Shown: positions 22,987 through 45,600, counted from the first letter of the stretch. The stretch is 45,600 nucleotides of DNA from a virus (IMGVR_UViG_3300037010_000457:1-45600); one strand, 5' to 3'. Numbers and translations are program-made. The notes: generated by a model from the sequence alone, not told the origin.

Positions 22987-23240
22987 TCCAGCACGAGACC
23001 ATCATCAGGAACGCGATCAAGGCGGGGCCATATCCCGCCGTGCGGTCGGCCGCGCTTGCCTCGCTTGACGCCATCGCCGGGGAACGGGCCGCTCTTGGCT
23101 TGTTCCTCTGGCGCGTCGCCGAACTGCTCGGCGTTCAACCCGAGGGTGGCTGGCCTGACCCAGAATCGGCCGGCATCGTCGAGGACCACATCATTAGCGC
23201 CATTGCAGAACTGAAGATCAACCAGAAGGGACAGCTATGA
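22983..23240 (+). CDS. Small hypothetical protein
   Basis: An 85-residue helical protein starting at TTG, chosen because GGAGG lies just upstream and the codon overlaps the preceding stop. The sequence contains 'SAALASLDAIAGERAALGLF' and an amphipathic C-terminal helix. No family is recognised. It overlaps the start of the ParB-like gene by 4 bases. Confidence 0.5.
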   Translation: MIQHETIIRNAIKAGPYPAVRSAALASLDAIAGERAALGLFLWRVAELLGVQPEGGWPDPESAGIVEDHIISAIAELKINQKGQL

Positions 23241-24046
23241 GATTTCAAGACCTGGGCAAGCGGGGCGTCCTCCAGAACATCGACCCCGCGATCATCGTCG
23301 AGGAGCCGGGGTGGAACCAGAGGGCAGAGACCCCAGCCCTGGAGCAGCACATCCAGTCCCTCGCCGGGTCCATTCGGGCCCTGGGCGTCCTTGAACCCCT
23401 CACCGCCTACATGAAGGGCGACGCCGTGGTACTGGTGAACGGCCATTGCCGCCTCGCAGCCGTTCGGATGCTGCTGGATGCCGGGGAGGAGATCAAGACG
23501 GTCCCCGTGCGTGTGGAGCCCCATACCGCGAACGACGCCGACCGCGTCCTCTCGATGGTCACTCGCAACAGCGGCAAGCCCCTGGAGCCGATGGAGGTCG
23601 CCGCCGTGTTCAAGCGGCTGGTCGCCTTCGGGTGGGACGCCGCCGACATCGCCACGAAGACGGGCTACTCCGAGAACAGGGTCGGGGAACTCCTGCGGCT
23701 GAACGCAGCCCCCGAGGAGGTCAAGGGAATGATCGCCAGGGGCGAGGTAGCAGCAACCACCGCAGCAAAGGTACTTCGGAAGGCTGGGGCAAAGGACGGC
23801 ACGGCCATCCTGACCACGGCGGTCGCAACGGCCAAGGCGAACGGGAAAGCGAAAGCCAGTGGACGCCACCTCCCGCAGCCCGTGTCCGAGCAAGCCACCC
23901 TCGCCGTCACCGACGAGGCCGAGAGGTCAATCCTGGGCGAAGGGTGGAATAGGTTCCTGAACGACCACGGGGACCAGTTCACCGACCGCCAGCTTCTGGC
24001 GTTCAAGGCCTCATTCATGGGCCTGCCACGAGAGGACAAGGGATGA
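23237..24046 (+). CDS. ParB/RepB-like protein
   Basis: A 269-residue protein with a ParB N-terminal domain: 'EQHIQSLAGSIRALGVLEPL', then 'VVLVNGHCRLAAVRML' (the GxxRxxA-like CTP/nucleotide site, here GHCRLAA), followed by 'SMVTRNSGKPLEPMEVAAVF' and the helix-turn-helix 'ADIATKTGYSENRVGELLRL'. This is the full ParB order of nucleotide domain and DNA-binding domain. No ParA partner is present, so plasmid-type partition is not supported. Phage ParB-like proteins may regulate transcription or modify DNA; the role here is open. Confidence 0.8.
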   Translation: MRFQDLGKRGVLQNIDPAIIVEEPGWNQRAETPALEQHIQSLAGSIRALGVLEPLTAYMKGDAVVLVNGHCRLAAVRMLLDAGEEIKTVPVRVEPHTANDADRVLSMVTRNSGKPLEPMEVAAVFKRLVAFGWDAADIATKTGYSENRVGELLRLNAAPEEVKGMIARGEVAATTAAKVLRKAGAKDGTAILTTAVATAKANGKAKASGRHLPQPVSEQATLAVTDEAERSILGEGWNRFLNDHGDQFTDRQLLAFKASFMGLPREDKG

Positions 24047-24453: not shown

Positions 24454-24857
24454 CCGACTTCGCAAGCCGGGGAATCATGTTCTCCCCATCCCACCTCACC
24501 CCCTCGATGGCCGCACGGTGCCTCGGGGTCACTCCTGGCGCGGTGAGAGACCGAATCAGCAGGGGAACCCTCCCGACCGAGACCCATTTCGGGGTCAAGC
24601 TGATCCCGACCCACGCCGTCATGGATGCCCTGGACCGCAAGACCGACGGCAACGCCACGCCGATAGCCGAGATGAGATCCAAAGGCTATGTCTTCTTGAA
24701 GACCAGCGTGTGCCGTGCTTGCGGGGCACCGATCCTCTGGTTCTGGACCCCAAAGGCCAAGCGGATGCCGTTCAATGTCCACTCCACGGTGCCCCACTGG
24801 GACACCTGCCCCAAGACACACACCACGCCACCCGGAGGAAGACCACCTAAGCCATGA
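24450..24857 (+). CDS. HTH and zinc-ribbon protein, paralogue of a second zinc-ribbon gene
   Basis: A 135-residue protein. Residues 15-60 ('MAARCLGVTPGAVRDRISRG') look like a MerR/excisionase-type helix-turn-helix. Residues 85-125 form a zinc ribbon, 'CRACGAPILWFWTPKAKRM' and 'PHWDTCP'. The ribbon matches the small protein at 26899-27105 ('CRGCGADLIWYLTPKGKAM', 'PHWAKCP'), so the two arose from one ancestor. The two genes bracket the methyltransferase cassette. It starts in an ATGA overlap with the YkgJ-like gene. Confidence 0.65.
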   Translation: MTDFASRGIMFSPSHLTPSMAARCLGVTPGAVRDRISRGTLPTETHFGVKLIPTHAVMDALDRKTDGNATPIAEMRSKGYVFLKTSVCRACGAPILWFWTPKAKRMPFNVHSTVPHWDTCPKTHTTPPGGRPPKP

Positions 24858-24954
24858 CAAGCGTCGCGTTCTATTCAAGGAGCCTGAACCATCACCCCAG
24901 GAACGGTGCGGCCCCGCGCCTCCTGTCCATCTGCACGACCCTACGGAGCCTGAA

Positions 24955-25590
24955 TTGGAATCAGTATTTCTAGGCACAGACCGCCAACTGCTCCCCGAGT
25001 TGTTCGGGTTCTATGCCCCCACCGTAACTGAGGTCCGTGATGTGACCTCCAACACCCGCAAAATGTGGACCGGCGTTTCCATTCCCGCCAATGTTCGCTG
25101 GTATGACATTGACCCCGCGATGAACCCCGATGAGGTCTGTGGGTGGGATGCCCTTCCCGATGCAGACCAAAGCCTTGATGTCCTGGTCTATGACCCTCCC
25201 CACCTTCCCCTTGCCGCAGCCTCCCCAATGTCCATGCCTCAGATGGTTGGAGACTACGGTTTGGCAAGGTCCGTAAAGGGCGACAACATCACGGCGATGC
25301 ACAAATCCTTCCTCCTGGAAGCCAAGCGTGTCCTGCGCCCCGATGGGCTGGTGTTCGCCAAGATCAAGGACTACATCCACAACCACCGCTACCAGTGGAA
25401 CCTTGAAGCGTTCAACGAGGCTTGCCGTGTCGCTGGGATGACCCCCTGCGATCTGGTCATCAAGCGCGACCCATGCGGCGGGAACCTGAAGTCAGGGCGA
25501 TGGGTCAAGGTCCATCACTCCAGGAATGTCCACTGTTATTGGGTCATCGTCCGTAACTCAACTAAGTGCGAAGCCAAGCGCATCGTCTGA
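24955..25590 (+). CDS. SAM-dependent methyltransferase with DPP motif
   Basis: A 211-residue protein starting at TTG 24955, chosen because CGGAG lies a few bases upstream and the family similarity begins soon after; the ORF stays open further upstream. The core reads 'VRDVTSNTRKMWTGV', 'WYDIDPAMN', then 'LDVLVYDPPHLP' with D80-P-P as the catalytic motif IV, and 'EAKRVLRPDGLVFAKIKD', a methyltransferase strand-turn. This pattern occurs in phage DNA methyltransferases or DNA-modifying relatives. The base it modifies cannot be read from sequence. Codon use is less GC-rich than in neighbouring genes. Confidence 0.75.
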   Translation: MESVFLGTDRQLLPELFGFYAPTVTEVRDVTSNTRKMWTGVSIPANVRWYDIDPAMNPDEVCGWDALPDADQSLDVLVYDPPHLPLAAASPMSMPQMVGDYGLARSVKGDNITAMHKSFLLEAKRVLRPDGLVFAKIKDYIHNHRYQWNLEAFNEACRVAGMTPCDLVIKRDPCGGNLKSGRWVKVHHSRNVHCYWVIVRNSTKCEAKRIV

Positions 25591-25608
25591 TCTTGTCCAG
25601 GAGCCCCT

Positions 25609-26046
25609 TTGAACCCCGTCCCCGTCACTTTTGAAGAGTGCTGCGCTTTCGTCGCAGACCTCCACCGGCATCATCGGCCACCTGTAGGGTGGAAATTTGG
25701 TATCGGCGCAGAGAAGGACGGGAAACTTGTCGGCGTAGTCATGGTGTCCCGCCCCGTGGCCCGAAGGCTAGACACGGGGCAGACCCTCGAAGTGACCCGG
25801 TGCTGCACCGATGGGACCAAGAACGCCTGCTCGTTCCTCTATGCCAGCGCATGGAGGGCGGCAAAGGCCCTCGGTTACACCCGCCTCATCACCTACACCC
25901 TGCCCGATGAGGGCGGGGCCAGCCTAAGAGCTTCGGGCTGGAAGTGCCTCTACGAAACGCCGGGGAGGACTTGGTCTGTGCCAAGCCGCAAACGGGAAAC
26001 CGCAGCGCAAGTCCTCGGCCCCAAGTTGCTTTGGGAAGCCTGTTGA
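25609..26046 (+). CDS. XF1762-family protein (GNAT-like)
   Basis: A 145-residue protein starting at TTG after AGGAG. The sequence follows the XF1762 pattern: 'HRHHRPPVGWKFGIGAEKDG', 'VGVVMVSRPVARRLDTGQTLEVTR', 'CCTDGTKNACSFLYASAWRA', 'LITYTLPDEGGASLRASGW'. The fold is related to N-acetyltransferases, and genes of this family are often near phage DNA-modification genes. It sits between two methyltransferase genes here. The substrate is unknown; a role in DNA-base or protein acylation is a possibility to test. Confidence 0.8.
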   Translation: MNPVPVTFEECCAFVADLHRHHRPPVGWKFGIGAEKDGKLVGVVMVSRPVARRLDTGQTLEVTRCCTDGTKNACSFLYASAWRAAKALGYTRLITYTLPDEGGASLRASGWKCLYETPGRTWSVPSRKRETAAQVLGPKLLWEAC

Positions 26047-26067
26047 ATATGTCCATCTGGAGGAACC

Positions 26068-26796
26068 ATGGAACCCGAAACCTACCAGCACCCAAAGCAA
26101 CCCCACGCAGAGAAGCCCTTGGCGGTCTATCCAAATCGGGTTGAAACCATCGGTCCTGCCACCCTCTACCTTGGGGACTGTCGGGATATCCTGCCTACGC
26201 TACCGAAGGTCGACGCCGTTGTGACAGATCCACCCTATGGGCTCAACTGGAAGCCACGCATTAACCACCAGGATCAAGAATGGGTGGATGTCGTTGACTT
26301 TGATATCACAGAACTACTGAAGCATGGGCGGTTCCATCTCATTTGGGGTGGGCAGTATTTCGCGGACAAATTGCCGGTCAGAGATGGGTGGCTCACTTGG
26401 TGTAAGCGCCCCATTGACCACGATTTCTCTAACGATAACCGGAGCTACAGCACCACGGAACTTGCTTGGCGGGATTGGGGCAAGGCCAAATTCATGTGCC
26501 AGGTTTGGGATGGTGGGAAGAGGGCGGGCGAAAGCGTCAACCGGACATTCTGCCACCCATCACAGAAGCCCATTGAGTTGATGCGATGGTGCGTTGCCCA
26601 GCTTCCCACCGATGCGAAGATCGTTCTAGACCCATTCATGGGCTCAGGCACAACTGGCGTGGCGGCTATTGAATCGGGTCGTTCCTTTATCGGTATTGAG
26701 CGCGAACCCAAATACTTCGACATCGCCTGCAAACGGATTTCACTGGCCGCGGCCGAGGCTAAGCAGCGCCTATTCTCAGCAGGAGAGGTATCGTGA
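26068..26796 (+). CDS. DNA adenine-type methyltransferase, beta class
   Basis: A 242-residue enzyme that should methylate an exocyclic amine (N6-adenine more likely than N4-cytosine). Motif IV is at 53-57 (TDPPY), the target-recognition part lies between, and motif I is at 188-197 (DPFMGSGTTG), followed by 'FIGIEREPKYFDIACKRI'. The order IV then I is that of beta-class enzymes. There is no restriction endonuclease partner, so it is probably a solitary phage methylase protecting against host restriction. The gene is visibly more AT-rich than its neighbours, a sign of recent transfer. Confidence 0.88.
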   Translation: MEPETYQHPKQPHAEKPLAVYPNRVETIGPATLYLGDCRDILPTLPKVDAVVTDPPYGLNWKPRINHQDQEWVDVVDFDITELLKHGRFHLIWGGQYFADKLPVRDGWLTWCKRPIDHDFSNDNRSYSTTELAWRDWGKAKFMCQVWDGGKRAGESVNRTFCHPSQKPIELMRWCVAQLPTDAKIVLDPFMGSGTTGVAAIESGRSFIGIEREPKYFDIACKRISLAAAEAKQRLFSAGEVS

Positions 26797-26858
26797 GTCT
26801 CCCATCCAAGCGAGCCAAGCCCAGGCGACAAATGCTTAACCGCTGGGAATCCCAATAA
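26793..26858 (+). CDS. Possible 21-residue peptide
   Basis: A GTG overlapping the methyltransferase stop (GTGA), with AGGAGAGG upstream, opens a 21-codon frame, very basic (Lys/Arg-rich), ending in TAA. The ribosome-binding site and overlap suggest translation, but its tiny size gives no other support. Confidence 0.25.
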   Translation: MSLPSKRAKPRRQMLNRWESQ

Positions 26859-26898
26859 CCGCGTATGTCCATCACCGAACCCACGAGAGGAGCGAACC

Positions 26899-27105
26899 AT
26901 GCCATTCCCCACGACCGCGAAGGGCTTCATCGAGCAGGGCTACACCAAGAAGAACACGGGCACATGCCGGGGCTGCGGCGCTGACCTGATCTGGTATCTC
27001 ACCCCGAAGGGGAAGGCGATGCCCGTCGAGACCCTGACCCTGGAGCCCCACTGGGCGAAATGCCCGAACGCCGAGGACTTCAGGAAGCACAAGGTCAAGC
27101 CGTGA
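26899..27105 (+). CDS. Small zinc-ribbon protein
   Basis: A 68-residue protein with one zinc ribbon: 'CRGCGADLIWYLTPKGKAM' and 'PHWAKCP'. It is a single-domain version of the ribbon at the end of the protein encoded at 24450-24857. GAGAGGAG precedes the ATG. It overlaps the HNH gene start (GTGA). Possible roles are DNA binding or regulation of the modification genes. Confidence 0.65.
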   Translation: MPFPTTAKGFIEQGYTKKNTGTCRGCGADLIWYLTPKGKAMPVETLTLEPHWAKCPNAEDFRKHKVKP

Positions 27106-27563
27106 ACGATTGTCGGAAGCTGCGTTGCCACGAGCCCACCATCGAGGACTCGGAGTTCTGCCGGAAGCACCATCACGAGGCCGACCACCGACTTCAGAAG
27201 GCTCGGGCCGAACTGAGAAGGGTTCGCGCCACTCCCAGGCGCAAGGGCCCACCCGCCCCAAGGATCAAGAAGCGTCGGCTCAAGGACCCAGCATGGCTCA
27301 ATCGGGTTCGACGGCTTCCGTGCTGCGTGTGCGACTCCCCGCCCCCAAACGAAGCCCACCACATCAAGGACGGCTCTGTCGGGGCTGGGCAGAAGGCCGG
27401 GGACCACGAGACCATCCCGCTCTGTGCCGAACATCACAGGACGGGAGGCCGTGGCATCTCCTTCCACGAAGGGTCTGGTCGCCTAGCCTGGGAAGCCCTG
27501 TTCGGGACCCAGCGGGAACTCCTGGCCGAGACGCTGGTTCTCTTGGCGGGCGAAGAAGCCTAG
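27102..27563 (+). CDS. HNH endonuclease-like protein
   Basis: A 153-residue protein with a basic N-terminal half and a C-terminal HNH-type core: 'PCCVCDSPPPNEAHHIKDG', 'GAGQKAGDHETIPLCAEHH' and 'GGRGISFHEGSGRLAWE'. The His residues and Cys pairs fit a beta-beta-alpha metal nuclease of the DUF968/Ref-like kind known in phages and linked to recombination. The N-terminus has its own Cys/His set ('CRKLRCHEP', 'FCRKHHHE'), so it may have a zinc-binding domain. The start is GTG overlapping the ribbon gene stop. It could be a recombination nuclease or a homing-type enzyme; the former is favoured. Confidence 0.75.
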   Translation: MNDCRKLRCHEPTIEDSEFCRKHHHEADHRLQKARAELRRVRATPRRKGPPAPRIKKRRLKDPAWLNRVRRLPCCVCDSPPPNEAHHIKDGSVGAGQKAGDHETIPLCAEHHRTGGRGISFHEGSGRLAWEALFGTQRELLAETLVLLAGEEA

Positions 27564-28602: not shown

Positions 28603-29220
28603 ATGACCGAACCCATCACCACCCCCCGAAGCTGGCAGAACAGGATCGTTGGCCACGGCGAAGAGGCGCCAGATCAACTCCTGGCGAACCCGAAGAACTG
28701 GCGGATTCATCCCGGCACCCAGCAGGCAGGACTGGAGGCCGTGCTTGATCGCGTGGGCTGGGTGCAGTCGGTCGTCGTGAACCGACGGACCGGGTTCTTG
28801 GTGGACGGACACCTCCGGGTCACGCTGGCGATGCGGAGGTCCGAGCCCGTCATCCCCGTGGTCTATGTGGATCTGGACGAGGAGGAGGAGGCGCTGATCC
28901 TGGCGACCATCGACCCTCTGTCCGGGCTGGCCGGAACGGACCACGAACTGCTGGACCAGCTACTCGCGGAGATCAAGCCCGACGACCCAGGCATCCAAGC
29001 CTTGCTCGACTCGCTTGGTGGCGTGTCGATCCCGCCCCCGCCCGACCTGAATAACCTCGGCGACCAGCACGGGGAGCATGACCCCGCGATGTTCTGGCCT
29101 GTCTTCAAGGTGAAGCTGAAGCCCGAGGTCTATGAGCGATGGGAGTCCATGTCCAAGGAGTTTCCCGGCGACGACGCCGCGAAGTTCGAAGCCATCCTTG
29201 AGCGTGTGGTTCTCGCGTGA
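28603..29220 (+). CDS. ParB-like protein coupled to DpdA
   Basis: A 205-residue protein with a ParB-like nucleotide domain at about residues 24-95: 'LLANPKNWRIHPGTQQAGLE', 'GFLVDGHLRVTLAMRR' (G-H-x-R motif) and 'EEEALILATIDPLSGLAGTD'. It lacks the helix-turn-helix part of true ParB and ends in a short C-terminal domain ('FKVKLKPEVYERWESMSKEF'). Such ParB-like proteins are common next to phage DNA-modification enzymes. It ends in a GTGA overlap with dpdA, so the two are translated together. It may help DpdA choose or bind DNA; that is inference. Confidence 0.75.
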   Translation: MTEPITTPRSWQNRIVGHGEEAPDQLLANPKNWRIHPGTQQAGLEAVLDRVGWVQSVVVNRRTGFLVDGHLRVTLAMRRSEPVIPVVYVDLDEEEEALILATIDPLSGLAGTDHELLDQLLAEIKPDDPGIQALLDSLGGVSIPPPPDLNNLGDQHGEHDPAMFWPVFKVKLKPEVYERWESMSKEFPGDDAAKFEAILERVVLA

Positions 29221-30149
29221 CCAGAATCCACCTCGCGGAAGCACAAGGGCAGCAGCGCGGGTTCGAGAACAAGGCCGTGAACGAGCGTGGGAAGCGGCTG
29301 CGAATCCTGATCTCCTACCACTATTTCGGCAAGGAGGATCTGGACACTCTCCTCGCCAAGCACTTCACCGAGCCGTATCCCGAGATCTTCTTGGACTCGG
29401 GGGCGTTCAGCGCGAAGACCCAGGGTGCCCCCATCGACCTGAACACCTATGTCGCCTTCATCAAGCGGAACGCCCACCACCTGTCCACTTATTCGGTCCT
29501 CGATGTCATCGGGGACGCCAAGCGAACCAGGGAGAACCAGCAACGCATGGAGGACCTGGGAGTGCAGCCGCTCCCGTGCTGGCACACCGGGGAATCGTGG
29601 GAGGACCTGGAGTGGTATATCGAACGCTATCCCTACATCGCGGTCGGGGGCTTGGTCCCCTACCTCCGCTTCTCCCAGAAGCTGATGCCCTGGCTCGTCC
29701 AGGCTTTCAAGCAAGCCAAGGGGCGGAGTGTCTTCCACGGCTTCGGTGCGACCTCGTGGAAGATCGCAAGCATGGTCCCGTGGTATTCCGTGGATTCGTC
29801 GTCGTGGGCTGCTGGGGTTCGCTTCGGGCAGGTCGATGTCTTCGACTACCGGGCGGGGAAGTTCAGGACCCTCCGGCTCGGCAAGGCACAGGACTGGATC
29901 GACTACGGGCCCCTCGTGCGAAGCCTGGGTTTCGACCCGAAGGACTTCGCTGACCGGGCCCGGAACAAGCGGGAGACGATCTGCGGTCTCTGTGCCGTGT
30001 CTTACATGGAAGCGGAGCGATGGTTGAAAGCCAGACACGGGGAGGTCATTCTTCCCGAAAGACCCAACGGGCTTCGCCTCTACATGGCGAACCCTCAACT
30101 GAAGGACTTCACCCTTGCACAGCGGGGCATCAAGGAGGTAGGGCGATGA
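29217..30149 (+). CDS. dpdA: DpdA: DNA guanine transglycosylase for 7-deazaguanine insertion
   Basis: A 310-residue TGT-like enzyme. Bacterial and archaeal Tgt exchange guanine in tRNA; phage DpdA does so in DNA, using preQ0 or derivatives as substrate. The conserved aspartates are visible: D60 in 'IFLDSGAFSA' and D193 in 'YSVDSSSWAAG', along with 'VGGLVPYLR' and a C-terminal Cys/His set (C256, C259, H274 in 'CGLCAVSYMEAERWLKARH') that could bind zinc. The size and motifs resemble phage DpdA, not the longer bacterial Tgt. It lies in an operon with the complete preQ0 pathway. It starts at GTG, overlapping the ParB-like stop, and ends in an ATGA overlap with queC. Confidence 0.88.
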   Translation: MTRIHLAEAQGQQRGFENKAVNERGKRLRILISYHYFGKEDLDTLLAKHFTEPYPEIFLDSGAFSAKTQGAPIDLNTYVAFIKRNAHHLSTYSVLDVIGDAKRTRENQQRMEDLGVQPLPCWHTGESWEDLEWYIERYPYIAVGGLVPYLRFSQKLMPWLVQAFKQAKGRSVFHGFGATSWKIASMVPWYSVDSSSWAAGVRFGQVDVFDYRAGKFRTLRLGKAQDWIDYGPLVRSLGFDPKDFADRARNKRETICGLCAVSYMEAERWLKARHGEVILPERPNGLRLYMANPQLKDFTLAQRGIKEVGR

Positions 30150-30814
30150 AGGCGGTTGTGATTGTCTCTGGCGGGATGGACTCCGTCACCCTGGCGCACC
30201 ACATGAAGGGGGCGGGCTTCGACCTGTCGATCCTCTCCTTCGACTACGGCCAACGCCACGCGAAGGAACTGCGCTTCGCCAAGGCTTGCGCGGACCTGCT
30301 GGGAGCCCCCCATTCGGTCGTGGACCTGTCGGGTCTGCGGGTGCTGCTCCCTGGCTCCAGCCTGACCGACGACGCCGTGCCAGTCCCGGAGGGGCACTAT
30401 GCCGCGGACTCCATGAAGGCGACGGTCGTCCCGAACCGGAACGCCATCATGCTTGCCATCGCCTACGGCCACGCGGTCGCCATCGGTGCCGATGTGGTGG
30501 CGTTCGGGGCCCACGGCGGGGACCACTTCATCTATCCCGACTGTCGGCCTGAATTTCATCGGGCACTGAACGAGGCTTTGCGGATCGGAAACGAGGGCTT
30601 CGGGAACCCGAAACTGCGGCTCACGGCCCCATTCATCAACAGCACGAAGCAGGACATCGCCGCGATGGGCTCCCGCCTGGGCGTGGACTTCACCCAGACC
30701 TGGAGCTGCTACAAAGGCGGGGAGAAGCACTGTGGCAAGTGCGGGACCTGCGTGGAGCGTCGGGAGGCCTTCGCCCTGGCGAACATCGAAGACCCGACAG
30801 CCTACGAGGAGTGA
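30146..30814 (+). CDS. queC: QueC: 7-cyano-7-deazaguanine (preQ0) synthase
   Basis: A 222-residue ATP-dependent enzyme converting 7-carboxy-7-deazaguanine and ammonia to preQ0. The PP-loop SGGMDS is at 8-13, 'DYGQRH' at 33-38, 'VVPNRNAIMLAIA' is the family signature, and four zinc cysteines sit at 188, 196, 199 and 202 ('CYKGGEKHCGKCGTC'). The length is that of plain QueC, so there is no fused amidotransferase of the Gat-QueC type that makes archaeosine-like DNA. GGAGG lies upstream of the ATG, which overlaps dpdA. Confidence 0.95.
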   Translation: MKAVVIVSGGMDSVTLAHHMKGAGFDLSILSFDYGQRHAKELRFAKACADLLGAPHSVVDLSGLRVLLPGSSLTDDAVPVPEGHYAADSMKATVVPNRNAIMLAIAYGHAVAIGADVVAFGAHGGDHFIYPDCRPEFHRALNEALRIGNEGFGNPKLRLTAPFINSTKQDIAAMGSRLGVDFTQTWSCYKGGEKHCGKCGTCVERREAFALANIEDPTAYEE

Positions 30815-30817
30815 CCG

Positions 30818-30940
30818 ATGTCGCACATGATCCCGCCCCCACAGAAGGAGGGTCGATGGTGGGTCTGGACCCTCCTCGCTCTGCTCTGCATCACGGCCCT
30901 GAACTTCATCCTGGGAGTAGCCCATGCACAGCATCACTAG
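30818..30940 (+). CDS. Small membrane or secreted peptide between queC and queD
   Basis: A 40-residue ORF starting 3 bases after queC and overlapping queD by 17 bases. After a short polar N-terminus ('MSHMIPPPQKEGR') comes one hydrophobic segment ('WWVWTLLALLCITALNFILG') and the end 'VAHAQHH', which looks like a membrane anchor or signal peptide. It has no known relative by eye. Its position inside the preQ0 operon is unusual; it could be a leader that couples translation, or a tiny membrane protein. Confidence 0.45.
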   Translation: MSHMIPPPQKEGRWWVWTLLALLCITALNFILGVAHAQHH

Positions 30941-31346
30941 GACCCACGAGATAGCCTGCGGGCATCGGGTATTCGGTCACGAGTCCAAGTGCGCCCACCT
31001 TCACGGGCACAATTATGTCTTCGAGTTCACTTGCACCGGGGAACTGGATCACCTGGGCCGGGTGCTGGACTTCTCAGTCGTGAAGGAACGCCTCTGCCAA
31101 TGGCTGGAGGACACCTGGGACCACCGAATGATTCTCTGGGTCGATGACCCCGCTGGTCGTGTCTTACTGGATGCGGGGCTTCAATTTCACTGGGTCGATT
31201 TCAACCCCACCGCCGAGAACATGGCGCAGCACTTGGTCGAGGTTATCGGTCCGATGCGGCTGCGTGGCACGGGCGTCCGCCTCGTGAAGTGCCGGGTCTG
31301 GGAGACCGGGAAATGCTCTGCATCCTTCGAGGTGTCGCCATGCTGA
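30924..31346 (+). CDS. queD: QueD: 6-carboxy-5,6,7,8-tetrahydropterin synthase
   Basis: A 140-residue enzyme making 6-carboxytetrahydropterin from dihydroneopterin triphosphate, the second step towards preQ0. The zinc histidines are H14 ('ACGHRVFG'), H27 and H29 ('CAHLHGHNY'), with the catalytic Cys23. 'LDFSVVKE' and 'TWDHRMIL' supply the catalytic Asp/His, and 'CRVWETGKCSASF' carries the conserved Glu. Length and motifs are normal. The stop overlaps the start of queE. Confidence 0.94.
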   Translation: MHSITRTHEIACGHRVFGHESKCAHLHGHNYVFEFTCTGELDHLGRVLDFSVVKERLCQWLEDTWDHRMILWVDDPAGRVLLDAGLQFHWVDFNPTAENMAQHLVEVIGPMRLRGTGVRLVKCRVWETGKCSASFEVSPC

Positions 31347-31996
31347 AAGTCAACGACATTTATCCCTGCATCCAGGGCGAGGGAGCGTTGACGGGAACGC
31401 CGATGGTTCTTCTGCGGCTTCACGGCTGCGATGTCGGGTGCCCCTTCTGCGACACGAAGGAGACATGGCATCCAGCCGAGAAGGAACAGGCTCGGGACTT
31501 CCAAAGGGCCCTGGGGACTGGCCCCGCCTGGGCGGAGATCGACGAACAGGACCTCGCCGGGGAGATCCTGCGAATGGCTGGTCCGATCCGCTGGGTCTTG
31601 GTCACGGGGGGAGAGCCCTGCCTTCAGGACCTGGATCGGCTCACGAAGGTCCTGCGGAAGCAGGGCTACTCCCTGGCGCTGGAGACCAGCGGCACCGAGG
31701 AGGTCACGGGACTCTGGGACTGGATCACGGTCTCCCCGAAGTTCCAGATGCCCAGGGGAAAGAAGCTACACGCCGCAGCCATCATGCAAGCCCACGAGGT
31801 CAAGCAGGTCATCGGGAAGCCGGACGACCTGGACATCGTGAACCACATGATCGTCCAGGGCTGGACGACAGCCCCGAAGGTGGCTCTGCAACCCATGTCC
31901 GAAAACAAAGCCGCGACAGAGTTCTGCATGGCGACCTGCCTGGAGCGCGGCTACCATCTCTCTCTTCAAACTCACAAGTGGATCGGTGCCCGATGA
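31340..31996 (+). CDS. queE: QueE: 7-carboxy-7-deazaguanine synthase
   Basis: A 218-residue radical-SAM enzyme that contracts the pterin ring to 7-carboxy-7-deazaguanine. The Fe-S cysteines are C30, C34 and C37 in 'HGCDVGCPFCDT' (CxxxCxxC). 'IYPCIQGEGALTGTP' at the start, 'WVLVTGGEPCLQDLD' and 'LALETSGT' are QueE signatures. The ATG at 31340 overlaps the queD stop and follows a weak GAGGTG. It ends in an ATGA overlap with folE. Confidence 0.95.
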   Translation: MLKVNDIYPCIQGEGALTGTPMVLLRLHGCDVGCPFCDTKETWHPAEKEQARDFQRALGTGPAWAEIDEQDLAGEILRMAGPIRWVLVTGGEPCLQDLDRLTKVLRKQGYSLALETSGTEEVTGLWDWITVSPKFQMPRGKKLHAAAIMQAHEVKQVIGKPDDLDIVNHMIVQGWTTAPKVALQPMSENKAATEFCMATCLERGYHLSLQTHKWIGAR

Positions 31997-32538
31997 GCAA
32001 GGTGGACTTCGCACGACTGGAAACCCTGGGGCGGGAACTACTCCTCGCCATCGGTGAGGACCCCGACGAGGAACGCATCAAGGACACGCCCCGCCGCTGG
32101 GCGAAGTGGTGGCGGGACTTCATCGAACACGATCCGGGGACCGTGGACACGGCTTTCCAGTCCATCGTGGCCGACCAAATGGTCATCGTTTCGGGCATGA
32201 GGATCTGGTCGCTCTGTGAGCATCACCTTCTGCCCTTCTGGTGCAACATCGCCATCGCCTACATCCCGAAGGACAAGGTGCTAGGGCTGTCCAAGTTCGG
32301 TCGCATCGCCAGGTCTGCGGGCTCCCGGCTCCAGATCCAGGAACGGCTCGTGCAGGACATCGCCCTCGAAGTTCACCGCCTCACTGGTTCCGAGAATGTG
32401 GCCGTGCTTGCCCAGGGTGAACATCTGTGCATGACGATGAGGGGGGCACGGATGGAAGCGGCCATGACCTCATCGGTCATGGAGGGGGCGTTCAGGAAGC
32501 CAGAAGTCCGGGCCGAGTTCCTGTCGCTGGTGAAGTGA
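31993..32538 (+). CDS. folE: FolE: GTP cyclohydrolase I
   Basis: A 181-residue enzyme opening GTP to dihydroneopterin triphosphate, the first step of preQ0 synthesis (and of folate). Zinc ligands C75, H78 ('SLCEHHLLPFW') and C146 ('GEHLCMTMRGAR') are present, with 'KDTPRRWAKWW', 'LGLSKFGRIA' and 'QIQERL'. This is the type I enzyme. A phage copy raises GTP flow into the pathway. It is the last gene of the modification operon and is followed 1 base later by the small terminase gene. Confidence 0.95.
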   Translation: MSKVDFARLETLGRELLLAIGEDPDEERIKDTPRRWAKWWRDFIEHDPGTVDTAFQSIVADQMVIVSGMRIWSLCEHHLLPFWCNIAIAYIPKDKVLGLSKFGRIARSAGSRLQIQERLVQDIALEVHRLTGSENVAVLAQGEHLCMTMRGARMEAAMTSSVMEGAFRKPEVRAEFLSLVK

Positions 32539-32539
32539 C

Positions 32540-33127
32540 ATGGCTGTCGGCATCGAGGAAATCTGCCGGGTCCTGGCGGGTCAAGACAATCCACCGATGA
32601 CCCCGGAGCGAATTCGCCAGCTTGTGAACGAGGGGATGCCGAAGGACGGTCATGGTCAATACGACGCCGTCCGGTGCATGTACTGGTATCTCGGGAAGGT
32701 TCGCCGGATGGTCTCGCACAAGGAAAGCGAGAACGCCGATGGGACCTCCTCGGGCATCCGGGGGGAACGGAAGCGGCTGCTCTCGACCCAGGCCGACATA
32801 GCCGAGATGGAACTGGCGCGGGCCCGGATGGAGACAATCAGCATTCAGGACCACGAGCGAATCCTGGGCGAACTGGTCATGGAGACGAAGGCCCGCATGA
32901 TGTCCATTCCGGCGCGGGCCGCTGCCGATGTGGTGGGGGAGACCTCCCGCGTCATGGTTCAGGCCAAGATCGAGAAGCGGGTCCGTGAGGCCATGTCTCA
33001 CCTCTCGGACTCGTCGCCGCAGCCCGTGGTGCCCAAGGCCGCGAAGGTGGACCGCAAGAAGGAACCGAACCGGAAGTCCACCACGAAGGCGAAGGCCAAG
33101 GCGAAGAAGAAAACCGGGGCGGACTGA
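32540..33127 (+). CDS. Terminase small subunit (Nu1-like)
   Basis: A 195-residue protein directly before the large terminase, overlapping it by one base. The N-terminus ('GIEEICRVLAGQDNPPMTPERIRQLVNEGMPKDG') is the Nu1-type winged helix with an excisionase-like fold that binds the packaging site. A helical middle with 'LSTQADIAEMELARARMETIS' and a very basic C-terminus ('KAKAKAKKKTGAD') follow. It determines where packaging starts; with a GpA-type partner, cos cleavage is expected. Confidence 0.82.
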   Translation: MAVGIEEICRVLAGQDNPPMTPERIRQLVNEGMPKDGHGQYDAVRCMYWYLGKVRRMVSHKESENADGTSSGIRGERKRLLSTQADIAEMELARARMETISIQDHERILGELVMETKARMMSIPARAAADVVGETSRVMVQAKIEKRVREAMSHLSDSSPQPVVPKAAKVDRKKEPNRKSTTKAKAKAKKKTGAD

Positions 33128-35034
33128 TGTTCGAGACCCACCCCACGGCCCTCCCGGTTCTTGATGGGGCGCACGACCGGGTTCGAAGGCTCTGGGAGCC
33201 CCCGCCAGACATCACCGTTTCCCAGTGGGCCGAGGCGAACCGCATTATGCCCAGGGGAACGACCTCCAGGCCAGGGCCCTTCCGGGCGGAGAAGTTTCAG
33301 CGCGAGATGATGGATGTCTTCTGCGACCCATCGGTGCATAAGATCGCCGTCATGAAGGGAACGCAGATCGGCTACACCGACGCGGTCCTGAACAATCTCA
33401 TCGGCTACACCATCGACCTCGATCCGAAGCCGATCATGATGGTCCTCCCCGGTGGGGACATCGTTCGGGAGTACGCCAGGAAGCGGCTGAACCCGATGGT
33501 GGAGGCCACGCCCTGCCTCCGGTCGAAGGTTCGGGAAGCCAAGTCTCGGGACGGTGGGAACACCCTGAAGATGAAGGTCTTCCCCGGTGGCTTCGTCAAG
33601 CTGGCGAACGCCGGGTCCGGGAAGGACCTGCGCTCGGACCCTATCCCCCTCCTGCTGTTCGATGAAGTGGACGGCTACGACGATGATGTCGGTGGGGAGG
33701 GCGACCCGCTCCAGATCGGTGAACGCCGGACGGACCAGTATCCCGACGCGAAGATTCTCTACGGCTCCACCCCCGCCAAACCCAAGGGATTCTCGAAGAT
33801 CGAGGACCTGTTCGACCGTTCCGACCGCCGCCGCTTCCATGTGCCCTGCCCCTACTGCGGCTTCATGCAGGTCCTCCGGTGGCGGGACGAGGAAACGAAG
33901 GTCTATCGGCTCACCTGGGAGAAGGACCTTGAGGGCTATCCCATCCCCGAGACCGTTCGGTTCATGTGCGAGGGCTGCGGTGTCGGGATCGAGGAACGCT
34001 ACAAGCAGCGGATGCTGGACGCCGGGGAGTGGATCGCGGAGTGCCCAGGCCGGGAGATCGTGGGCTTCCACATCAATGCGCTCTATTCGCCCTGGAAGGA
34101 GAACTGGGCGATCCTGGCGAAAGAGTGGCACGAGGCCCAAGACAATCGGGAGAAGCTACGGGCGTTCATCAATCTTCGCCTCGGTGAGACCTTTGAGGAG
34201 TCGGGGGACATTCTTGAAGCGAAGGGTCTCGCGGCACGGCTGGAGGAGTGGCCGGAGGATGTCATCCCGAACGAGGTAGCTGTCCTCACCGCCCAGGCCG
34301 ATGTCCAGGGGAACCGAATCGAAGCCACCATCGAGGGCTGGGCTGCTGGGGAACAGTCCTACCTCATCCACCGTGAGGTCTTCTGGGGCGACCCATCGAC
34401 GGATCATGGGGTCTGGGAGCAGCTTGAGGAGTTCCGGCTTCGGGAGTGGCGTCATGCTTGCGGGACCCTCCTGCGGCCAATCATCCTCCTCGTGGACTCT
34501 GGCGACCAGACGGACGCGGTTTACGATTATGTTCTCCCCCGGCAGAACCTTCGGGACCGCGTGTTCGCCATCAAAGGCGTGGACTTCCACGCGAGGCCAA
34601 TCCTCGTCCAAGACGGTGCCAGCAAGCGGCACGCCGTCCGTCTGTTCACCGTGGCGACCCACGCCGCGAAGGAGCGCATCTTCTCCCGCCTCCAGCTTCC
34701 CAAGCCCGAGCCGGGGGCTCCGTTCCCCCAGGGCTGGATTCATCTCCCGACCCATCTCGCGAATGACGAATACCTTGCCCAGCTTACTTCCGAGAAGAAG
34801 CTGACCGTCACCGACAAGAAGACCCATGTTCGCAAGGTCGTCTGGGTGAAGACCCACACGCGGAACGAGGCTCTGGATCTGAAGGTCTATGCCCTGGCGG
34901 GGCTGTTCATCCTCCAGAACTTCATCGACCCCGTGACATTCAGGGACCTCGGGGCCCTGGCTGCAGCCATCCGAGGAGAAGCCCCGCTGCCTGGACGCCG
35001 CACCCGTGGAGTCCGTTCGCCTGGGATTGGGTGA
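33127..35034 (+). CDS. Terminase large subunit (lambda GpA family)
   Basis: A 635-residue ATPase and nuclease driving DNA into the prohead. The N-terminal 'DITVSQWAEANRIMP' and 'GPFRAEKFQREMMD' are typical of GpA proteins. The deviant Walker A is at 76-84 (MKGTQIGYT) and Walker B at 175-182 (LLLFDEVD). 'CPYCGFMQ' and 'CEGCG' form a zinc site. The C-terminal nuclease domain shows 'LTAQADVQGNRIEATIEGW' and 'ILLVDSGDQTDAVYDYV' with the acidic residues. Members of this family usually cut at cos sites. Its stop lies in the first copy of a 21-bp direct repeat. Confidence 0.95.
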   Translation: MFETHPTALPVLDGAHDRVRRLWEPPPDITVSQWAEANRIMPRGTTSRPGPFRAEKFQREMMDVFCDPSVHKIAVMKGTQIGYTDAVLNNLIGYTIDLDPKPIMMVLPGGDIVREYARKRLNPMVEATPCLRSKVREAKSRDGGNTLKMKVFPGGFVKLANAGSGKDLRSDPIPLLLFDEVDGYDDDVGGEGDPLQIGERRTDQYPDAKILYGSTPAKPKGFSKIEDLFDRSDRRRFHVPCPYCGFMQVLRWRDEETKVYRLTWEKDLEGYPIPETVRFMCEGCGVGIEERYKQRMLDAGEWIAECPGREIVGFHINALYSPWKENWAILAKEWHEAQDNREKLRAFINLRLGETFEESGDILEAKGLAARLEEWPEDVIPNEVAVLTAQADVQGNRIEATIEGWAAGEQSYLIHREVFWGDPSTDHGVWEQLEEFRLREWRHACGTLLRPIILLVDSGDQTDAVYDYVLPRQNLRDRVFAIKGVDFHARPILVQDGASKRHAVRLFTVATHAAKERIFSRLQLPKPEPGAPFPQGWIHLPTHLANDEYLAQLTSEKKLTVTDKKTHVRKVVWVKTHTRNEALDLKVYALAGLFILQNFIDPVTFRDLGALAAAIRGEAPLPGRRTRGVRSPGIG

Positions 35035-43614: not shown

Positions 43615-44388
43615 ATGGCTACCCCGTCCACCGCGAACCTCTATCTCGGCGCTGGCGAGATTTGGTTCAATCGCTTTGATAGTTCCGGCAACAAGACCCA
43701 GTGGCGGCACCTCGGGAACTGCTCCAAGTTCGAACTGGACCCGAATGTGAACACGGTCGAGAAGTACAGCAGCATGAGCGGGGCCCGTGGCCTCCTCTCC
43801 CGCGCTGTCGTCCAGACGGGTGCCTCTGTGTCCCTCACGCTCAACGAGTTCGATCCTGAGAATGTGGCTCTCGCGTTCCTGGGCGCGACGACTGTCGCGG
43901 GTCTCCAGACCACGGGCACCGCGACCGACCTCACCACCGCCCCCGCCATCGTCAAGAAGGGCTCCGCCCTCGACACCGGGAAGCGGAAGATCGTTGTGAC
44001 CTCCGCCAAGAAGTCCCCCTCGACCGCGCTGACCTCTGGCACGGACTACACCTATGACAGCGACTCCGGGCTCATCACCATCCTCCCCGGTGCGACGAAC
44101 ATCACTGACGGGGACACGCTGCTCTGGACGGGCACTTACCCGACTATCACGACTCCCATCGTCCAGGCCCTCTCGAACGCCCTTCTGCTTGGTGCTTTGC
44201 GGTTCCGCAGCGCGACCGACGCCGTGGGGCCCCGCTATGTCGTCGATGTCTGGAGGGCGTCCATGCAGCCTGACGGGGCTATCGGCTTCATCGGGAACGA
44301 CTACGCCGAGATCGGCTTCAAGGCTGCTTGCCTCCAGGATACGAGTCAGGCCGCAGGGAACCAGTTCTTCCAGGCCCAGCAGCTTTAG
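43615..44388 (+). CDS. Major tail tube protein, complete copy (lambda gpV-like)
   Basis: A 257-residue protein that builds the tail tube. AAGGAGG with ideal spacing precedes the ATG, in agreement with high expression. The N-terminal 120 residues ('STANLYLGAGEIWFNRFDSSG', 'FELDPNVNTVEKYSSMSGARGLL') form the tube domain. Residues about 120-170 look like a beta-sandwich insertion ('SGTDYTYDSDSGLITI'), and the last 90 residues ('ALLLGALRFRSATDAVGPRYVVDVWRASM', 'NDYAEIGFKAACLQD') return to the tube fold. It is followed by a hairpin and the chaperone gene. Confidence 0.85.
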   Translation: MATPSTANLYLGAGEIWFNRFDSSGNKTQWRHLGNCSKFELDPNVNTVEKYSSMSGARGLLSRAVVQTGASVSLTLNEFDPENVALAFLGATTVAGLQTTGTATDLTTAPAIVKKGSALDTGKRKIVVTSAKKSPSTALTSGTDYTYDSDSGLITILPGATNITDGDTLLWTGTYPTITTPIVQALSNALLLGALRFRSATDAVGPRYVVDVWRASMQPDGAIGFIGNDYAEIGFKAACLQDTSQAAGNQFFQAQQL

Positions 44389-44410
44389 CCTGAGATCGGA
44401 TGAATGAACC

Positions 44411-44441
44411 GGGGCGAGGACTCAACCCCTCGCCCCTATTT
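44411..44441 (+). terminator. Second copy of the tail tube terminator-like hairpin
   Basis: Same 9-bp stem and 8-base loop as at 500-530. It follows the tail tube stop. This copy is part of the wrap-around and does not indicate a second element in the genome. Confidence 0.6.
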
Positions 44442-44453
44442 CTGGAGGATGGA

Positions 44454-44906
44454 ATGAGCGAAGCAGTAGAACTCGGGGGACGCCGATTCGTGCGGGTGGA
44501 GAACAGTACCGTGCGGCATGACTTCTGGCTGATGGGTCAAGCACGGAAGGCAGGCCTGAACCGCATCGAGGCCAAGCCCGGAACAACCGTCGAGGACTTC
44601 GTGGACGAGATCTTGGGGCGGCTGATGGACTCCGACCTTGCCCTCGTGCTGCTCGGGGGGCTGCTGGTCCCCGAAGGCTTGGACATGAAGGACTGGACCC
44701 CGGCGACCGCTGCCGAGGTTACGAGGCACATCGAACTGCTCACCGCGAAGGAGGACAAGGACGCCGTGAAACCGTTGACCGCGTCCATGCTGATAGGTTT
44801 TTTCAGGTCCGGGATCGCCTCTTTGAAGATTTCCCACGGCTCTTTGACCGAGGGAGTGGAGGACGGTCCCGAACCCAGCAGCCCCAGCGAGAACGCTGGG
44901 GAGTAG
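44454..44906 (+). CDS. Tail assembly chaperone, short form (second copy of overlap)
   Basis: Identical in protein sequence to the gene at 543-995; it is the same gene read again because of the terminal overlap. See that entry for function and choice of start. Confidence 0.75.
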   Translation: MSEAVELGGRRFVRVENSTVRHDFWLMGQARKAGLNRIEAKPGTTVEDFVDEILGRLMDSDLALVLLGGLLVPEGLDMKDWTPATAAEVTRHIELLTAKEDKDAVKPLTASMLIGFFRSGIASLKISHGSLTEGVEDGPEPSSPSENAGE

Positions 44907-45136
44907 ATTTCGGGGACTGGAATCTTCTGGTCCGTGAACTCTCCGGCTGGTCTCCAGATCGCTTTGAAGTCGTCCTCTCCTGGCCCTTGCGTGAAGCCCT
45001 CCTGTCCTACGAACAGAAGCTGAAGAAGGAAGCCCGAGCAAGCTACTTCCAGGAGACCGTCATCTTCGCGATCCTCGCTCCGTGGCAGAAGGAGCAGGGT
45101 AAGCCCCCCCAGGTCCCCGACATCCTGAAGGACTGA
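44454..45136 (+). CDS. Tail assembly chaperone, frameshifted form (second copy of overlap)
   Basis: The slip heptamer TTTTTTC lies at 44798-44804 and the -1 frame ends at TGA 45134-45136. It is the same gene as at 543-1225, seen again because of the terminal overlap. Confidence 0.78.
44798..44804 (+). promoter_or_regulatory. Frameshift heptamer (second copy of overlap)
   Basis: Same T TTT TTC site as at 887-893. It is preserved in both haplotypes of the overlap, in line with selection, though the copies are almost identical overall. Confidence 0.85.
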
Positions 45137-45140
45137 ACCG

Positions 45141-45600
45141 ATGGCCACAGCCCCAGACATCCGAGTCAAGCTATCTGCCGAGGGCGTGGACGAAGTGGTC
45201 CGCGCCTTGCAGAAGGTCTCCGCCCAAGCGAAGAAGGCTGGTGACGATGCCAAGAAGGGCGGGGGTGGCTTCAAGCTAATGGGCGAGGCGATGAGCGACC
45301 TGAAGGGTCTCATCCCCGCCATCGGTCTTGCGGAGGGCGTCAGGGGGCTAGTGGACCTCACCAAGAGCGCCATCGAAGCCGGGGACCAGATGGCGAAGCT
45401 GTCCAAGAAGACAGGGATCTCGGTCGATACCCTTTCAGTCCTGGGGCTCGGCGCTGATCTGGCGAATGTGGGGGTCGAGGCTCTGGGGAAGGGTCTAAAG
45501 AAGATGCAGGTCGCCATGTACGATCTGGAGACCGGGGGCGGGGCTGCGGCCATCGGCTTCCGTCAGATCGGGCTTTCGTCGAAGGAATTGATAGGGTTGA
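45141..45600 (+). CDS. Tape measure protein, 5' part (cut by window edge)
   Basis: The first 153 residues of the tape measure protein, identical to the start of the gene at 1230-3905. The frame is open to the window end. It is the wrap-around copy and not a second gene. Confidence 0.9.
   Translation, partial: MATAPDIRVKLSAEGVDEVVRALQKVSAQAKKAGDDAKKGGGGFKLMGEAMSDLKGLIPAIGLAEGVRGLVDLTKSAIEAGDQMAKLSKKTGISVDTLSVLGLGADLANVGVEALGKGLKKMQVAMYDLETGGGAAAIGFRQIGLSSKELIGL

Follow-up and report, generated by a model that had tools for sequence, protein, structure and literature searches.

Several phages are known to carry 7-deazaguanines in their DNA. In Rosebush virion DNA, dPreQ0 accounts for about 28% of G (PMC6884629). 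CAjan also carries dPreQ0, and its dpdA gene is essential. The DpdA protein of phage 9g puts in preQ0 when expressed alone in E. coli, and phage 7-11, which has DpdA only, carried dADG. We analyzed a stretch of viral DNA of 45,600 nucleotides (IMGVR_UViG_3300037010_000457:1-45600, here called the window), in which six genes at positions 28603 to 32538, encoding ParB-like, DpdA, QueC, QueD, QueE and FolE proteins, form what is probably a complete dPreQ0 operon.

The gene set is of a known kind, and the cassette itself is not new, since the order ParB-DpdA-QueC-QueD-QueE-FolE-terminase is standard in mycobacteriophages. The B-cluster mycobacteriophage and actinophage dPreQ0 cassette (Rosebush, Quesadilla, Sour, Sonali, Finch) has its six genes in the same order as the window. 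In Quesadilla the match in gene order extends to eight genes, with the small and large terminase subunit genes (TerS and TerL) directly after the cassette, and close variants are found in Rhinoforte, Sour, Sonali, Finch and StAugustine. The lineages differ, however: the window has a terminase of the lambda GpA type in a genome of 43.9 kb, whereas the actinophage genomes span 61-139 kb. The operon adds an example of a preQ0 cassette from beyond the known actinophages, one that is compact and linked to terminase. The polymerase-linked cassette of CAjan, 9g and BcepGomr (Queuovirinae and relatives, VPv64 and Bhz54) encodes the same five enzymes and, in CAjan, has the same predicted product, but it differs in gene order, lacks ParB and has a DpdA from a separate branch. 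The combination of DpdA with FolE, QueD, QueE and QueC is that of group 2 of Hutinet et al. 2019, the phage dPreQ0 pathway, to which the window would probably belong. The bacterial Dpd system (DpdA-DpdB-DpdC) likewise joins a tRNA-guanine transglycosylase (TGT) homologue to a ParB-superfamily protein, a likeness at the superfamily level; no DpdC or restriction genes were recognized in the window, and the phage ParB has 205 residues.

An earlier note on this DNA had described six contiguous open reading frames (ORFs) with overlapping ends, and the coordinates and family matches bear this out. All six genes lie on the + strand directly 5' of the terminase genes, mostly joined by stop/start overlaps of 1-4 bp. 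DpdA starts at a GTG (29217), and QueE and FolE start at ATG codons (31340 and 31993). The QueC start is the ATG at 30146; the listed ORF start, 30020, sits upstream of it. The features, including a sister phage comparison (L020) taken up below, are these:

28603-28941, + strand: ParB-like protein, N-terminal ParB/Srx-fold domain (about residues 1-113), of the phage's own lineage by identity to L020 and Stenotrophomonas phages, PHROG ParB families and a fold match.
28942-29220, + strand: ParB-like protein, C-terminal tail of the kind seen in Dpd cassettes (actinophage Dpd tail model, E 1e-13).
29217-30149, + strand: DpdA, predicted DNA-guanine transglycosylase (phrog_887, 3.6e-55; type-A branch, 100/100; invariant residues).
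30146-30814, + strand: QueC, preQ0 synthase (TIGR00364, 8e-55, over its cut-off; E. coli QueC structure 2pg3, 5.5e-30).
30818-30940, + strand: 40-residue ORF with one hydrophobic segment, in the QueC-QueD gap, called by the gene picker; no NCBIfam match.
30924-31346, + strand: QueD, 6-carboxytetrahydropterin synthase (PTPS, PF01242, 2e-25; phrog_2389, 6.6e-47; TIGR03367, 1.2e-20, under its cut-off).
31340-31996, + strand: QueE, 7-carboxy-7-deazaguanine synthase, a radical SAM enzyme (TIGR04322, 3e-57, 193 bits against a cut-off of 200; solved QueE 6nhl, 3e-49).
31993-32538, + strand: FolE, GTP cyclohydrolase I (GTP_cyclohydroI, PF01227, 1.7e-48; solved GTP cyclohydrolase 1wm9, 2.7e-37).
32540-33127, + strand: TerS, right border of the exchanged slot (phrog_57; L020 synteny back from 32539).
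33127-35034, + strand: TerL, GpA type (PF20454 and PF05876; 90% identical to L020).

QueC, QueD, QueE and FolE all match solved enzymes by sequence, and the family matches, which lie far outside what chance would give, agree with the proposal of a complete GTP-to-preQ0 pathway accompanied by DpdA. Every catalytic residue that had been named beforehand was present when counted on the sequence: C75, H78 and C146 of FolE; C23 and the HxH motif of QueD; the CxxxCxxC motif of QueE; the four cysteines of QueC; and D60 and D193 of DpdA.

The earlier note had named placement of the 29217-30149 product outside the Tgt/DpdA superfamily as a result that would overturn its reading. The matches and the tree did not place it there. 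It matches phrog_887 and also phrog_7068, and a tree built from 89 DpdA proteins puts it within a 100/100 branch of phage DpdAs, with an IMG/VR DpdA as its sister (99/99). Every one of the 76 DpdAs in the two main groups has D60, D96, H123, H174 and D193. The best fold matches of its predicted structure, a low-confidence model, are TGTs (E 8e-3), and a local profile alignment set the D60 motif on D89 of E. coli TGT, a weak match (E 0.03) that covers the short motif only. A search of PDB sequences with the DpdA profile gave no match, nor did a single-protein DpdA scan of IMG/VR, where alignment-based searches succeeded.

We give a probability of roughly 80% to the reading that this is a complete, self-contained cassette of known type whose product is dPreQ0 in phage DNA; the figure covers the cassette and its product and leaves aside any role of ParB. 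FolE, QueD, QueE and QueC would convert GTP to preQ0, and DpdA would put it in place of guanine in phage DNA, so that part of the guanines become dPreQ0. The modified DNA would then be expected to resist host restriction. Both the base and the protection are extrapolated from the protein families and from the characterized phages Rosebush and CAjan.

We surveyed gene architecture across 80 IMG/VR DpdA loci and 17 reference loci and found two arrangements. In type A, to which the window belongs, the Que genes and FolE come after ParB-DpdA, usually in the order QueC-QueD-QueE-FolE. Type B reads QueE-QueC-QueD-FolE-DpdA-DNA polymerase, without ParB. All 36 type-A rows of the tree fell in one 100/100 branch (plus 4 unassigned rows), and all 40 type-B rows fell on another. 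The actinophage cassette DpdAs share the branch of the window DpdA and are 28-39% identical to it. The argument from rarity is weaker than the earlier note had it. Of 60 evenly sampled DpdA records, 3 had genomes below 50 kb (one 18.9-kb record was set aside), but complete five-enzyme operons occur in phages of 42-43 kb, namely, Stenotrophomonas phage Bhz54 (41.9 kb), Pseudomonas phage Baskent_P4_1 (41.9 kb) and Variovorax phage VPv64 (43.4 kb), which weakens the suggestion that the set is exceptional in so small a genome. A position directly before terminase, part of the same argument, is the rule for ParB-type cassettes, as seen in several actinophages and in the type-A loci. The VPv64 record (PV558795) is unannotated; its QueE, QueC, QueD, FolE and DpdA operon lies beside the DNA polymerase gene.

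The ParB-like gene, which the earlier note only named, is the most informative part of the operon. The sister phage L020 (43.2 kb) has a TerL 90% identical to that of the window, and its DNA aligns at 70% identity as far as window position 28919, which lies in the ParB gene; the alignment resumes at 32539, the TerS start, at 78% identity. Between these borders, L020 encodes a ParB tail of its own and a TET-associated glycosyltransferase (TAGT; PF20691, 3.8e-42). Since the alignment breaks at 28919 and 32539, the Dpd set lies in an exchangeable slot whose left border is within ParB. By alignment of the two genomes, the Dpd set and the glycosyltransferase module alternate in the same slot, a new observation, which indicates that preQ0 cassettes of this kind are exchanged as units with glycosyltransferase modules. 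A search of the window and of L020 for TET/JBP oxygenases returned no match, and since the control also returned none, it was uninformative.

As judged from its sequence, the ParB-like protein is a chimera, with an N-terminal domain from the phage lineage and a tail from the Dpd module. Over residues 1-113, identity is 80% with the L020 ParB and 54-61% with those of Stenotrophomonas phages, while the C-terminal tail is just 17% identical to the L020 tail. The reverse holds for the actinophage cassette ParBs, in which the tail is homologous to that of the window and the N-terminal domain is just 23-33% identical. The window protein matches PHROG ParB families and has no Pfam ParB match. The predicted structure of residues 10-108 (pLDDT about 80-96) had ParB-N, Noc and PadC as its best fold matches, with probabilities of 0.99-1.0.

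To follow the tail, we used a model trained solely on seven actinophage Dpd-linked ParBs. It matched the window ParB (E 1e-13) and not the ParB of L020 or QH16. Across 188 fetched loci (1.86 Mb), it found 30 places outside the training phages, all directly 5' of dpdA. Twenty-eight of these were scored with dpdA within 0.8 kb; L031 and L111, which are one contig, also precede dpdA and fell outside the distance rule because their dpdA reading frame opens upstream. Many of the loci had been fetched for encoding DpdA, and the count is therefore favored by sampling. In an independent set of 80 ParB-N relatives fetched regardless of DpdA, however, only L031, which has a close DpdA, passed (E 1.2e-9; next, 0.02). 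On these profile matches, the tail is linked to DpdA.

The slot holds other genes elsewhere. Among the 80 close ParB-N relatives (59 after near-copy removal), 30 were long ParB fusions, mostly with methyltransferase domains, and in the remainder the next gene was of the Mom family in 11, TAGT in 7 and DpdA in 2. Other genes 3' of ParB-N encoded C5-methyltransferase, ATPase-GNAT, PAPS-reductase-like and radical SAM proteins. Within these loci, matches to Mom, TAGT and DpdA models were confined to the 190 kb at ParB or immediately 3' of it (29 loci), and the remaining 486 kb gave none. N-terminal domains were about as similar between same-module pairs (71% identity) as between different-module pairs (70%), whereas tails were alike in 58% of same-module pairs, which are not phylogenetically independent, and in 11% of different-module pairs. 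Likeness across modules, chiefly a zinc-ribbon tail common to Mom and C5-methyltransferase loci, means that the rule that tails follow modules is not strict.

A slot of this kind between a ParB-like gene and terminase is not new, since Iyer et al. 2013 (as cited in PMC6536676) described it under the name ParB-Tls locus. As presented in that citing account, modification genes lie between the two, as they do in the window, and modification is proposed to be directed during packaging; the account stresses methyltransferases, whereas the window slot holds a five-gene Dpd set and a module-specific ParB tail. ParB-methyltransferase fusions and ParB near CmoX have been reported without an assigned function (PMC12704722, PMC12783734), and the authors describing CRB2 suggested that its ORF1 (ParB) could be a dpdB homologue (PMC6392294). 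We found no report of module-specific ParB tails in the limited set of literature searched, which did not include Iyer et al. 2013. What is new here is the TAGT/Dpd slot swap, the chimeric ParB, the Dpd-linked tail and the two DpdA architectures.

The bacterial DpdB, a member of the ParB superfamily and a partner of DpdA, offers a model in which the hybrid ParB would be an accessory protein that recruits DpdA to the phage DNA, perhaps close to packaging. By analogy, then, ParB may act as a DpdA partner, and a module-specific partner is a testable hypothesis. In its general form, which we hold tentatively and at somewhat less than even odds, the shared N-terminal domain would be an adaptor into which methyltransferase, Mom, TAGT or DpdA plugs via enzyme-specific tails, and type-A DpdA would need ParB for targeting or activity while polymerase-linked DpdA would not. 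A serious competitor, itself short of an even chance, is that the five enzymes work as stated and that the ParB-like gene takes no part beyond serving as a recombination anchor: unrelated modification modules would cross over in its conserved N-terminal domain, and its tail would hitchhike with no role in modification. The swap border inside the ParB gene fits this explanation, as do the many module types preceded by ParB-N, which make it a natural joint, and the polymerase-type DpdA cassettes without ParB. A hitchhiking tail would be expected to decay or vanish, yet all 30 places, from divergent phages, retain it beside DpdA, and it is the tails, not the N-terminal domains, that track the module. 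The DpdA-linked tail offers a concrete test of a long-noted question, the role of ParB-like genes beside phage DNA-modification enzymes.

Several points weigh against the dPreQ0 reading and the proposed ParB partnership. The window DpdA matches no Pfam, NCBIfam or PADLOC model, its structural model is low in confidence (pLDDT 51), and low-level dADG or another derivative may be made with host help. The polymerase-type DpdA of 9g works without ParB, and ParB may therefore be dispensable here. Finally, L073 (4457-9258) combines ParB-N, a very divergent DpdA (phrog_887, 8.8e-19) and four preQ0 genes and lacks the Dpd tail.

It is unlikely that the DNA contains a different 7-deazaguanine, such as dADG or dPreQ1, formed from preQ0 by an unrecognized window gene product or by a host enzyme. 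The dADG of phage 7-11 indicates that the base cannot always be read from gene content, and several window ORFs are without a family. But a canonical QueC is present and has no Gat domain, Rosebush and CAjan carry dPreQ0 with exactly this gene set, and no QueF, ArcS or Gat gene was recognized among the window proteins scanned, a set that omitted small ORFs and some other genes. That the genes instead boost queuosine precursor for host tRNA is very improbable: QueC, QueD and QueE also feed tRNA queuosine, and this role has been proposed for phages without DpdA, but here the operon includes a DpdA that groups with the DNA-modifying DpdAs of phages and keeps the invariant catalytic residues, and the slot is elsewhere occupied by DNA-modification genes.

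The earlier estimate of a phage of about 44 kb also held: the window closes into a circular genome of 43,911 bp, with 1-1689 repeated at 43912-45600 with 3 mismatches. A promoter scan of the operon gave no promoter-like match, and terminator matches there were not above chance. The capsid relatives are mostly Pseudomonas phages (best identity, 48%), and a TerL search of genome contigs for a prophage or host found no relative; together these are too little to name a host.

Some other ParB-linked slots point to possible unstudied modification modules. An ATPase-GNAT protein (phrog_11143), a candidate modification module, lies between ParB-N and terminase in L045, L047, L049 and L076. The same slot holds a PAPS-reductase-like gene in L088 (6485-7624), a radical SAM gene in L075 (6579-7811) and PP-loop and C5-methyltransferase genes in L027 (6748-8666).

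Elsewhere in the window, a second ParB-like protein (23237-24046) has an HTH_ParB domain and belongs to another PHROG family. The product of 25609-26046 was at one point taken for Mom; PHROGs label it Mom-like (5e-39), but it is below the Pfam Mom cut-off, and we assigned it to the XF1762 family (NF045478, 3e-59). A second variable slot is seen at 24850-27205, against 1747-3885 in L020. There the window has DNA methyltransferases (24715-25590 and 26068-26796) and the XF1762-family gene, and L020 has a C5-methyltransferase and an MT-A70 gene.

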